This document shows positions 16,964 through 44,696 of a DNA stretch of 64,000 bases, piece by piece. The notes under the pieces are model-generated. The model saw only the letters and a program-made list of their open reading frames with translations, was not told the DNA's origin and made no database searches. Origin of the DNA: Natrinema versiforme (GTDB lineage: Archaea > Halobacteriota > Halobacteria > Halobacteriales > Natrialbaceae); contig NZ_CP040330.1 in NCBI RefSeq assembly GCF_005576615.1, positions 3,100,001-3,164,000 on the forward strand. Direction: 5' to 3'. Position numbers and translations under genes: made by a program. Each line of letters starts with the position of its first letter. Positions within the stretch are counted from its first letter, which is position 1.

Positions 16964-17003
16964 CGCTCTTTCAGTCGCGAGTTCAGTCGTGTCTGAAAGA
17001 GCG
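16964..17003. repeat. 11-bp perfect inverted repeat
   Basis: The arms CGCTCTTTCAG (16964-16974) and CTGAAAGAGCG (16993-17003) are perfectly complementary around an 18-base spacer. The right arm overlaps the purH-like remnant, so the repeat may have formed from part of it. It could act as a transcript-end hairpin, but no T-run follows immediately. Confidence 0.55.
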
Positions 17004-17033
17004 CTGACCCGTGAACGCTATCGCGGCATCCAC
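16983..17033 (-). pseudogene. Remnant of a diverged purH 3' end
   Basis: Read on the minus strand, this gives AIAFTGQRSFRHD followed by TGA. The last ten residues FTGQRSFRHD are identical to the end of the intact purNH gene (MAMAFTGQRSFRHD, stop TAG). The codons differ at many third positions (for example CGC-TCT against CGG-AGC for Arg-Ser, AGA against CGA, GAC against GAT), and so does the stop codon. The frame upstream reads VDAA and then loses similarity. This fits a leftover from allelic replacement by diverged DNA better than a recent duplication. Confidence 0.7.
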
Positions 17034-17128
17034 CTTTTTCCACTCGGGTTCACTCACGACGTTCGTTCACCGCTCGCGCAAAAATCTGGACCAAAAAAGC
17101 CGCTCACTCACTACGTTCGCTCGCGGTC

Positions 17129-34620: not shown

Positions 34621-34765
34621 ACCGCGAGCGAGGCCGCAGGCCGAGCGAGCGGGCCGACGACTGACCCAACGGGGAAGGAGGAGTGCTTTTGATCAACCTT
34701 TTACCGAGGGACGCCGCGCTGTGTGGCGAAGCCACCAGCGCGGCAGACCGCAGCGTAAAAGGTTG
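34621..34765 (-). repeat. Structured intergenic element, copy A
   Basis: Shared blocks of the two-copy element: GAGCGAGCGGGCCGACGACT near the left end and GGGGAAGGAGGAGTGCTTTT (34671-34690), then GATC. A nested hairpin follows: outer arms 34694-34704 and 34755-34765 (11 bp, perfect), middle arms 34713-34721 and 34736-34744 (9 bp), inner arms 34723-34727 and 34731-34735 (5 bp, GAA loop). The outer arm ends next to the TFS stop codon, so in the TFS mRNA it forms a 3' untranslated stem. Copy B at 43114-43286 keeps the architecture with different arm sequences. Confidence 0.8.
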
Positions 34766-35074
34766 TTAGTTGTCGTCCTCGCGCCACTTGTGCTCGCACT
34801 CGGTACAGATGAAGAAGCGCGTCTCGGACTCGTCGGCCGCGCGGATCTGTTGCATGTACCAGTGGGCGCGGTCGTTGCCACACTCGGGACAGCGAGCGTC
34901 GGTTTCGGGTAGCGAGGTCTCGCCGGAGGACTCGATGACCTCCCCGATCTCTTGGTCGTCGGTGATGACGTACTGGTCGGCGTCGCCTTTCGGTTCCGTG
35001 TACCCGCAGCTACCGCACTCCCAGATCCCGTCCTCGGCTTTCATCATCGAACCGCATTCGTCGCAGAATTCCAT
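34766..35074 (-). CDS. tfs: Transcription factor S (TFS)
   Basis: A 102-residue archaeal TFS, which stimulates RNA cleavage by backtracked RNA polymerase, like TFIIS. The N-terminal zinc ribbon has CDEC and CGSC (residues 4-7 and 20-23); the C-terminal ribbon has CPEC and CTEC (about 62-65 and 90-93), with RAADESETRFF containing the Asp-Glu catalytic tip. A long hairpin element lies immediately after its stop codon and could shape its mRNA end. Confidence 0.95.
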   Translation of the reverse strand: MEFCDECGSMMKAEDGIWECGSCGYTEPKGDADQYVITDDQEIGEVIESSGETSLPETDARCPECGNDRAHWYMQQIRAADESETRFFICTECEHKWREDDN

Positions 35075-41725: not shown

Positions 41726-43009
41726 ATGACCGCGGACGACCTCGTTTCACTGCGTCGAGACCTCCACCGAAAACCCGAGCCCGCGTGGCGGGAGTTCTAC
41801 ACCACTGCGCGCATCGTCGACGAACTCGAGTCCCGACTGGGCGACGACCTCGACGGACTCCACGTCGGCCCCGAGGCCATCGCGGGCGATCACCGGATGG
41901 CGGTCCCCGACGACCCAGAGCTCACCCACTGGTACGAACGGGCGCGGGACGCCGGCATCGACCCGGACGTGCTCGAGCGACTCGAGGGCGGGTACACGGG
42001 CGCGGTCGCCGTCCTCGAGCGCGGTGATGGGCCGACGGTCGGCCTGCGCGTCGACATCGACGCGCTCCCGCGACCGGAGTCCGACGACCCGACTCACGCG
42101 CCTACCGCGGCGGGCTTTCGCTCCGAACACGAGGGGGCGATGCACGCCTGCGGCCACGACGCCCACGCGACGATCGGTATCGGCGTCGCGGAGCGGATCG
42201 CCGCTAGCGACGACTTTTCTGGGACGCTGAAAGTATTCTTCCAGCCCGCCGAGGAGGTCGTCGGCGGCGGGAAGTCGATGGCCGAAAGCGAGCACATACA
42301 GGATATCGATGCTCTGCTTGCGGTCCACATCGGGCTCAATCACCCGACCGGCGAAATCGTCGCCGGCATCGACGGCTTTCTCGCAGTCTCACACCTCGAG
42401 GCCGAGTTCGCGGGCGAGTCGGCACACGCGGGCGGCCATCCCGAGCAGGGGCGAAACGCCGTCCAAGCGATGGCGACGGCGGTGCAGAACCTCTACGGCA
42501 TTGCCCGGCACAACGACGGCAAGACCCGGGTCAACGCGGGCGTCGTCGAGGGCGGCAGCGCGGCGAACGTCATCCCGGACGAGGCCAGAATCGTCGCCGA
42601 AGTCCGCGGCGAGACGACCGATCTCATGGAGTACATGAAGGGGCGAACCCGGCAGGTCCTCCGGAGCGCCGCCCGGATGCACGACTGCGAGGTCGACATC
42701 GAAACCGGCGCGGAGGCACCGAGCGCGACCAGCGACGACGCACTCGTGTCGATCGTCGCCGACGTTGCAGGCGACACGGCGGGCGTCGAGCGAGTCCTCG
42801 AGCGCGACGAACTCGGCGGCAGCGAGGACGCGACGTTCTTGATGCGGGCGGTACAGGAACACGGCGGCACGGCCTGCTACGTCGGCGTCGGCACCGACCA
42901 TCCCGGCGGCCACCACACCGCGACGTTCGACGTCGACGAAGATAGCATCGGCCACGGAATCGACGTGCTCGCGGACTCGATAGAGGAGATCAGCCGTCAA
43001 CACGCCTGA
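41726..43009 (+). CDS. M20D amidohydrolase (N-acyl amino acid type)
   Basis: A 427-residue zinc amidohydrolase of the M20D group. The signature HACGHDAHAT carries metal-binding Cys and His residues, with QPAEEVVGGG supplying the Glu-Glu, then ESAHAGGHPEQGRNA in the dimerisation domain and DHPGGHH near the C-terminus. Family members hydrolyse N-acyl amino acids, aminobenzoyl-glutamate or indole-acetyl amino acids; the substrate here is unknown. The ATG at 41726 is preferred, since upstream codons are unconserved. Confidence 0.9.
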   Translation: MTADDLVSLRRDLHRKPEPAWREFYTTARIVDELESRLGDDLDGLHVGPEAIAGDHRMAVPDDPELTHWYERARDAGIDPDVLERLEGGYTGAVAVLERGDGPTVGLRVDIDALPRPESDDPTHAPTAAGFRSEHEGAMHACGHDAHATIGIGVAERIAASDDFSGTLKVFFQPAEEVVGGGKSMAESEHIQDIDALLAVHIGLNHPTGEIVAGIDGFLAVSHLEAEFAGESAHAGGHPEQGRNAVQAMATAVQNLYGIARHNDGKTRVNAGVVEGGSAANVIPDEARIVAEVRGETTDLMEYMKGRTRQVLRSAARMHDCEVDIETGAEAPSATSDDALVSIVADVAGDTAGVERVLERDELGGSEDATFLMRAVQEHGGTACYVGVGTDHPGGHHTATFDVDEDSIGHGIDVLADSIEEISRQHA

Positions 43010-43050
43010 CCGATAGTTTCGAAGCTACTCTCGAGCGGGAGTGGCCGGGA

Positions 43051-43079
43051 GCGGGCTCCGAGCACCGCGAGGAGCCCGC
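43051..43079. repeat. Hairpin after the M20D gene
   Basis: GCGGGCTCC (43051-43059) pairs perfectly with GGAGCCCGC (43071-43079) around an 11-base loop. It lies 42 bases after the stop of the amidohydrolase, without a T-run. It may be part of a transcript end or of copy B of the structured element. Confidence 0.5.
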
Positions 43080-43113
43080 GACTCGGGGGAGGGCAGGCGG
43101 TTACACGATTACG

Positions 43114-43286
43114 ACCGCGAGCGAGCCCGAAGGGTGAGCGAGCGGGCCGACGACTGACCCAGACGCCGCGCGACGCGCGGCTGGCGGGGAAGGAGGAGTG
43201 CTTTTGATCGAAATTTTGCCGAGCGTCGGCGAGACGTGCGCCAGCGATGCTGGCGTCGTCTCGCCAGAGCGCAGAGCAAAATTTCG
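43114..43286 (-). repeat. Structured intergenic element, copy B
   Basis: The same leader blocks as copy A: GAGCGGGCCGACGACTGACC and GGGGAAGGAGGAGTGCTTTT, separated here by an extra palindromic insert (CCGCGCG-A-CGCGCGG). The nested hairpin has outer arms 43209-43219 and 43276-43286 (11 bp), middle arms 43228-43236 and 43257-43265 (9 bp), and inner arms 43239-43245 and 43249-43255 (7 bp, GAT loop). All arms are perfect, although their sequences differ from copy A. It abuts the stop codon of the geranylgeranyl reductase gene. Confidence 0.8.
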
Positions 43287-43289
43287 TTG

Positions 43290-44696
43290 TTAGTACTTGG
43301 GGTCTGCTCCAGTCGTCTCGTAGACCGTCTCCATGAGGTCGTCGCGGCGGGCCTGCCAGCCGGCGAGTCCCTCGGGGCTGGTCGGGTAGTTCTCGTAGTG
43401 TGCGAGGAGGTCGTCGGCGCGGCGCTTGGTCTGGTAGAGGTTCCAGATGGTGCCCCAGTGGCCGCGGCTCTTGATGAGGGACTCGAGTTTGAGTTTGAGC
43501 CCGATGTCGGTACTGCCGGAGTAGAGGGCTTCGGCGAGTTTGTCGCCGGGCATCGCGGCGAGCAGGCCCATCAGATCGTCGACGTCGACGGCCGTCGAGA
43601 GGATGTTGTAGACGTCCAGTGCGGCGTAGCGCGCGCCGAAGTGGTCCATCACCTTCTCGTTGTACTCCCAGAGGGTGTCCTCGCTGAAGTCACCGGTCTC
43701 GAGGGCCTCGATGGCTCGTTCGGCGGCGTACTTGCCGCCGTAGGCGGCCCCGGCGATGCCGCCGCCGGTCGTGGGGTTGACGTGGCCCGCGGCATCGCCG
43801 ATGGCCATGTAGCCCGGATGCACGGCGGAGTCGTAGGGCCGTCGGGTGGGCAGTGCCGCGCCGAGTTTGTCCTCGACTTCGGCACCCTCGAACTCGGGGC
43901 GGTTCTCGAGGTCGCGTTTGAGGTCGTCGACCAGTTGCATGGGTTCCTCGGTCATCTGGAAACCCAGCCCGGCGTTGATCTCGGTGTCGGTCCGCGGGAA
44001 GTACCACAGATAGCCCGCGGCGCGCTCGGTCGGCTTGAAGACGAGCGCGTCGTCCCACTCGACGGGTTCGTCGACGCGGACGATCTCGCGGTAGGCCGAA
44101 CAGAAGTGGCTGTAGTCGACGTTGGTGTCGAACGTCGACTCCGAGAAGTCGACGTTGTCCTGCAGAACCGAGAGCGAACCCGCGGCGTCGATGACGATAT
44201 CGGCCTCGTACTCGAGTGGGTCGCCCTTCCGGATGGCTTCGACGCCGGTAACGCGGCCGTCGTCGTTCTGGACGACGTTCTTCACGACGGTATCGTAGTG
44301 GAAGTCGACGCCGGCGTCGCCCGCGCCGTCGATGATCCGCCGGCCGTACTCCCAGCGGTCGATGACGGCGAGTTCGCCGGGGACCGGAATCTCGAGGACG
44401 GTGTCCTCTTGGGGGATTTCGAAGCGGCCGTGGTCGACGCCCGTGTTGGTAAAGGCCGGCTCGAGTTTCGACTTCGGGATCGCCTCGGGGAAGGCGTCGG
44501 CACCCTTCAGCGCGTCGCCACAGGCGATGTGGCCCGCCTCGTCCTCGTCTTTCCGCTCGAGAATGACGACGTCGTACCCCTCCTGCGCGATGGTCGCTGC
44601 GGCGTAGCACCCTGCGGTGCCCGCTCCGACGACGACCGCGTCCGGCGACTGCGTTCCCGTCGTCGTGGCGGCGGCCGACTGCTCCTGCGTACTCAT
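43290..44696 (-). CDS. Digeranylgeranylglycerophospholipid reductase family
   Basis: A 468-residue FAD enzyme of the geranylgeranyl reductase family, which saturates the isoprenoid chains of archaeal membrane lipids (or of menaquinone). The FAD-binding GAGTAG is at residues 24-29, and the second FAD motif is GYMAIGDAAGHVNPTTGGG. The Cys in HIACGD (about residue 59) is conserved. The ATG at 44696 lies about 36 bases after a TATA box. The 3' end is followed by copy B of the structured element. Confidence 0.93.
   Translation of the reverse strand: MSTQEQSAAATTTGTQSPDAVVVGAGTAGCYAAATIAQEGYDVVILERKDEDEAGHIACGDALKGADAFPEAIPKSKLEPAFTNTGVDHGRFEIPQEDTVLEIPVPGELAVIDRWEYGRRIIDGAGDAGVDFHYDTVVKNVVQNDDGRVTGVEAIRKGDPLEYEADIVIDAAGSLSVLQDNVDFSESTFDTNVDYSHFCSAYREIVRVDEPVEWDDALVFKPTERAAGYLWYFPRTDTEINAGLGFQMTEEPMQLVDDLKRDLENRPEFEGAEVEDKLGAALPTRRPYDSAVHPGYMAIGDAAGHVNPTTGGGIAGAAYGGKYAAERAIEALETGDFSEDTLWEYNEKVMDHFGARYAALDVYNILSTAVDVDDLMGLLAAMPGDKLAEALYSGSTDIGLKLKLESLIKSRGHWGTIWNLYQTKRRADDLLAHYENYPTSPEGLAGWQARRDDLMETVYETTGADPKY

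Follow-up and report, generated by a model that had tools for sequence, protein, structure and literature searches.

A dispersed, structured RNA element with a T-tract lies against gene ends in Natrinema versiforme and related haloarchaea

The intergenic termination motif of Haloferax volcanii consists of a T stretch with TC; in that organism termination reached 95% at T5C and 59% at a hairpin site, hairpins being found at a subset of sites only (PMC7237163). Bacterial REP/BIME elements (PMC2817692) are dispersed, extragenic and palindromic, and often lie between convergent genes. The window considered here, a 64,000-nt stretch of Natrinema versiforme DNA (contig NZ_CP040330.1, positions 3,100,001 to 3,164,000), contains two copies, A and B, of an element that shares these REP/BIME features but has a longer multi-hairpin fold, compensatory changes and a stable gene association across genera. 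With the Haloferax terminators it shares a conserved intergenic T-tract with TC and hairpins upstream; unlike them, it has a conserved, covarying structure of about 150-250 nt with tandem G.A motifs, and its link is to the gene that follows the T-tract, not to the one that precedes it. Tandem sheared-type G.A pairs are also found in kink-turns, but the core helix has at most a one-base bulge and no conserved three-nucleotide bulge, and a kink-turn was rejected. By analogy, we would describe it as a putative terminator in an unusually structured form. No Rfam 15 family reaches its gathering score in the window, the best weak matches to the element region having E values of 0.3 and above, far below the cut-off, and no earlier description of the element was found in the literature searched.

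Copy B occupies positions 43043-43286 of the window (here and below, elements are given on the + strand unless stated otherwise). The earlier note had begun it at 43114, with a leader common to both copies; it starts further left once M1 is counted. M1 (43043..43098; GGCCGGGAG-hairpin-CTCGGGGGAGGGCAGG) is an optional module, absent from copy A and present in 44 of 93 copies, another family included. It is followed by M2 (43115..43145), a hairpin CCGCGAGCGA...GAGCGAGCGG with tandem G.A mismatches, recognized by the covariance-model match, pair counts and GA conservation, and by the core helix (43146..43201; GCC-GA-C-GA-CT-GA-CCC / GGG-GA-AG-GA-G-GA-GUGC), defined by the alignment fold and covariation, which carries three tandem G.A motifs and encloses hairpin M3. 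The T-tract TTTTGATC (43202..43209), conserved across 80 copies, separates the core from M4 (43209..43286), a long hairpin GAAATTTTGCCGAGC...GCGCAGAGCAAAATTTC. Copy B folds with a z-score of -5.7. Copy A (34622..34765, delimited by the covariance-model match) lacks M1 and consists of M2 (34622-34652), the core with a short M3 (34653-34686), the T-tract (34687-34694) and M4 (34694-34765).

In the consensus core (+ strand), GCCGACGAYTGA pairs with GGRAGGAGGAGTGC, the helix being broken by the three tandem G.A motifs. The consensus T-tract is TTTTnATC, and M4 has an AT-rich foot (nnnTTTTRC/GYAAAAnnn), with T4 on both strands, and its internal loop, CGAGG...CGCAG, is conserved. This loop and the outer AT-rich stem are all that copies A and B have in common of the 11-9-7 nested hairpin once ascribed to both, as the inner stems differ. 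A second core type, GGCC(A/G)AGGAACC...GGTGACGCnGTGCTTTT, takes the place of the G.A-rich core in other families (L084, L085, L094, L269, L280, L284, L292). Copies L181, L182, L212 and L247, at the geranylgeranyl reductase (GGR) gene, share an extra module between the T-tract and M4, GAAGCTAAGCGGGA-hairpin-CCCGCGAGGTCC-hairpin, which is altered in L247.

The palindromic insertion described earlier in copy B corresponds to M3 (GCCGCGCGACGCGCGGC, ~43165-43181), as delimited by the M3 comparison among copies of this genome, with the stem GCCGCGCG/CGCGCGGC. The extra palindrome is present, but the excess is 22 nt (38 nt at this position in copy B vs 16 nt in copy A), not 24. Similar inserts were found in other copies, 16 of the 21 in this genome exceeding, at this position, the short form of copy A, and at the tfs locus six species carry several different versions. 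M3 is therefore a hypervariable hairpin, not a single insertion: the proposal that the element takes up small palindromes holds in that such hairpins turn over fast, differing by species at tfs, and fails in that the insert of copy B is not a one-off. Hairpins were also gained at the M1, M2 and M4 loops in other copies. One M3 type (CTGATG...CGAAAC) resembles a hammerhead core; this likeness was rejected, the same positions covarying with CCC/GGG elsewhere.

A covariance model built from 17 element copies, A and B included, shows that both belong to a dispersed structured-RNA family with about 30 good copies in the 4.67 Mb genome (3.75 Mb main chromosome and four other contigs). All of them lie on the main chromosome; the four other contigs (~0.93 Mb in all) have none. 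Its match to copy B spans 43115-43286 with E 7.7e-37, and copy A is matched at 34622-34765 with E 6.5e-36, both copies being themselves part of the model; the two copies are thus found where they had been reported. A word count made without the model gives 21 occurrences of the core word GAGTGCTTTTnATC in the genome and 0 of the reversed pattern, so the match between A and B is not due to chance. CGGGCCGANGA was rejected as a source of extra copies: of its 156 matches, those read within 20 fetched stretches were unrelated, mostly coding sequence, with two exceptions, which were element copies that the model had already found.

The model has matches in 130 of 195 genomes of the order (43 of 66 genera), with per-genome counts of at least about 15 at the high end; Natrinema genomes have 4-38 matches each. 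One member of the genus (G003) has four matches, mostly weak or decayed copies, at the aIF-1A, PurF, thermosome and EngB genes, and it may have lost a partner factor. The four loci (L063, L081, L087, L091) are at the same genes as elsewhere. At the GGR locus the element is present, decayed or absent depending on the genus of the family, and in the search of the 195 genomes the model found no copies in some. Since it is mostly decayed in G003 and missing in some genomes, the element is old but dispensable.

The fold of the element is real. In the alignment of 80 copies fitted to the covariance model, standard pairs fill 98.1% of the cells of modelled pairs and compensatory changes occur in 30 of the 37 modelled pairs; when the pairing partner was slid as a control, only 37-53% remained paired. 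The same fold is seen when 17 copies are aligned with MAFFT. G-U outnumbers A-C in paired positions (90 vs 17), also in the stems of M1, which was aligned without the model (44 vs 9), and the selected RNA is therefore the + strand. The three tandem G.A motifs are each found on this strand in about 95% or more of the 80 copies, and the opposite strand would carry C.T mismatches there. In copies A and B the + strand is antisense to the gene that each of them abuts.

Genes were called by a codon-score caller written for this analysis. As stated earlier, copy B abuts the stop of a lipid reductase and copy A abuts tfs; the distances to the two stop codons are 3 nt and 0 nt, respectively. The former gene (43290..44696, - strand) encodes a geranylgeranyl reductase family protein (TIGR02032 above cut-off), whose sequence is 98% identical to that given for Natrinema versiforme, the latter (34766..35047, - strand) transcription factor S (TIGR01384 above cut-off); the left neighbour of copy B, convergent with the reductase gene, encodes an amidohydrolase family protein (41726..43009, + strand; TIGR01891 above cut-off). 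The same tight position recurs throughout the family: among the 111 copies opposed by a stop codon, 98 have their end between -1 and 6 nt from it, and 13 of the 21 copies facing a same-strand gene end 32-46 nt upstream of its start codon, a gap occupied at S6e by a conserved promoter-like stretch. The left-hand gene is on the + strand in 74 copies, at a distance of 1 to ~650 nt, and on the - strand in 55; since it has either orientation, the element is not simply its terminator. Hence the 3' end of the element lies flush against a gene unit and the 5' side is not so placed. At some convergent gene pairs two elements stand back to back, one per gene (L156, L170, L171). Copy L044 (G000:C2:1594534-1594659) lies between tandem gyrB and gyrA, antisense to both. 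Copies L066, L067, L080 and L092 (in G020, G014 and G017) follow shortly after genes with a ELYGLTDEEIEIVEEAV-like C-terminus, and in L092 the gene end apparently recurs after the element.

Right-hand genes named by NCBIfam encode TbsP, S6e, S8e, EngB, CofE, TFS, a geranylgeranyl reductase family protein, PAN2, the small and large subunits of PolD, PurF, aIF-1A, two thermosome subunits, a TrkH family protein, GyrB and L16; the remaining ones have weak NCBIfam matches only or no named family. By inspection of the names, they are mostly housekeeping genes. The earlier observation that the abutted genes have no obvious common function stands, as the element is dispersed and serves unrelated genes.

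The link to the right-hand gene is inherited vertically. In G006, of the same genus, 15 of 16 fetched copies adjoin orthologues of the right-hand genes of N. versiforme, although the left gene has changed in five of these 15; the corresponding figure for the family's other genera is 14 of 22 copies at orthologous right-hand genes. Shared sites are rarer across families (thermosome in G018, EngB and S6e in G110, S8e in G157), where different gene sets adjoin the element. S6e and S8e carry it on the 5' side in Natrinema and at the 3' end in G110 and G157, respectively; this switch points to an association with the gene, not with an exact site. Nearness to the stop codon alone could account for part of the stability within the genus, but does not account for the switch.

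We consider it somewhat more probable than otherwise that the element is an orientation-specific transcription boundary, a structured T-tract terminator directed against incoming, often antisense, transcription. This reading is favoured because the T-tract would stop + strand transcription and because the element stays with the downstream gene whatever the direction of the left gene. Of 80 copies, 79 have T4 and 71 have TC after it; the element thus has the intergenic T stretch with TC by which haloarchaeal T-tract terminators are recognized. RNA polymerase that enters from the left, having started at a convergent or upstream neighbour or at spurious promoters, would make a chain of stiff hairpins (M1, M2 and the G.A-rich core with M3) and then the T-tract with TC. 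Termination before or within M4 would leave the right-hand gene unentered: a gene facing the element with its stop codon would be kept free of antisense RNA, and one facing it with its promoter would be protected from read-through. The T4 on both strands of the M4 stem might also help to end the mRNA of the abutting gene itself. A scan for bacterial-type intrinsic terminators (a hairpin and, directly after it, 5 or more T in 8 bases) found no sites in 43000-43320, and for this reason a factor may be required, such as the archaeal termination nuclease or a protein that binds the G.A helix. Termination, its efficiency and any factor reading the G.A-rich helix are what we infer from these observations. 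The back-to-back pairs would be unneeded if a single bidirectional terminator sufficed. Simple relatives of the element, known from this genome and from others, have an M2-type hairpin directly before TTTTTGGTCC or TTTTTGATCC and look terminator-like as well.

Several observations speak against a transcription boundary. The T-tract of most copies, T4, falls short of the T5C assayed in Haloferax. It seems that termination alone would hardly call for three conserved tandem G.A motifs and a 250-nt chain, and a bound protein or another role is therefore possible. Nearness to the stop codon would by itself keep element and right-hand gene together when the genome is rearranged, and the element is dispensable, as its decay in G003 and the genomes without copies indicate. 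More tentatively, and with less confidence than in the boundary itself, we propose a haloarchaeal gene-specific insulator, read in the incoming orientation only and probably recognized by a dedicated factor through the tandem G.A helix, which would guard housekeeping genes against antisense transcription and read-through.

The elaborate conserved fold with its conserved unpaired blocks, as well as the mostly housekeeping nature of the abutted genes (S6e, S8e, L16, aIF-1A, TFS, PolD subunits, GyrB, PurF, thermosome, PAN2, EngB), would also suit a family of small regulatory RNAs. Each copy would then give a stable RNA, made from a weak promoter of its own or cut from a longer transcript, which would act on the abutting gene or bind a protein, e.g., coupling housekeeping genes to growth. 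We regard this as unlikely: the RNA stops at the stop codon and barely overlaps the coding region, and it is without an Rfam relative. An autonomous promoter was rejected, as no conserved block was found upstream of M1 in the three orthologous sets compared (tfs, S6e and TbsP).

Dispersed multicopy palindromes, with gene sets that differ in other families, might also represent a selfish or once-mobile REP/MITE-like repeat that targeted gene ends and was later kept. The mobile element favoured by the earlier note fits the simple relative and fits the composite form, to which A and B belong, poorly. In the window the simple relative (17030..17128, - strand; M2-type hairpin, CTTTTTTGGTCCAGATTTTTGC, hairpin, GGAAAAAGGTGG) is situated immediately behind the stop codon of a purH-like gene; a second, recoded purH-like 3' end (16983..17029, - strand; AFTGQRSFRHD, stop TGA) follows it directly, the two gene-end copies differing synonymously. 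The same element with a repeated gene end is found at several other genes of the genome; simple-relative loci with a recoded gene end are L144-L149, L153 and L254-L267. Among 14 Natrinema genomes, some purH sites are empty, several hold a single copy and one carries a tandem array of three or more; sites with the element mostly end in CACGATTAG, and empty sites mostly in CACGACTGA. This looks like an insertion or recombination bringing a new gene end, and suggests either insertion with a target duplication of ~36-50 nt or gene-end replacement. Beside the composite element, by contrast, we found neither a target duplication nor, to its left, a remnant of the abutted gene or trace of a duplicated gene end beyond shuffled controls. 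Composite copies keep the same genes within the genus (15/16) and in 14 of 22 cases in other genera; GGR copies were lost or decayed in several genera and no clear recent gain was seen. Moreover, the RNA fold is under strong selection, no phage match was found, and plasmid records matched were only two. For the composite form we find such an origin decidedly improbable.

Least probable of these, in our judgement very much so, is an element of the sense-direction 3'UTR that protects or processes the mRNA of the abutting gene. The end of opposing copies within 6 nt of the stop codon (98/111) and the T4 of the M4 arm, present on the sense strand too, agree with it, but the G-U/A-C asymmetry and the G.A motifs favour the antisense strand, and S6e, S8e and other genes carry the element upstream of the promoter. 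The general 3'-end processing suggested earlier is unlikely for the same two reasons. A riboswitch or other 5' leader regulator was rejected, most copies facing a stop codon, so that they are not in a sense 5'UTR, and start-facing copies mostly ending at a promoter-sized gap of 32-46 nt upstream.

Returning to the transcription boundary, if the element is insulating, it illustrates how transcriptional interference is kept down in compact archaeal genomes, where many genes are convergent. It would be a large structured RNA element without an Rfam entry, matched in about two thirds of the sampled genomes of a major archaeal order, and offers a concrete site for testing whether termination in archaea may depend on the structure of the RNA besides the T-tract.
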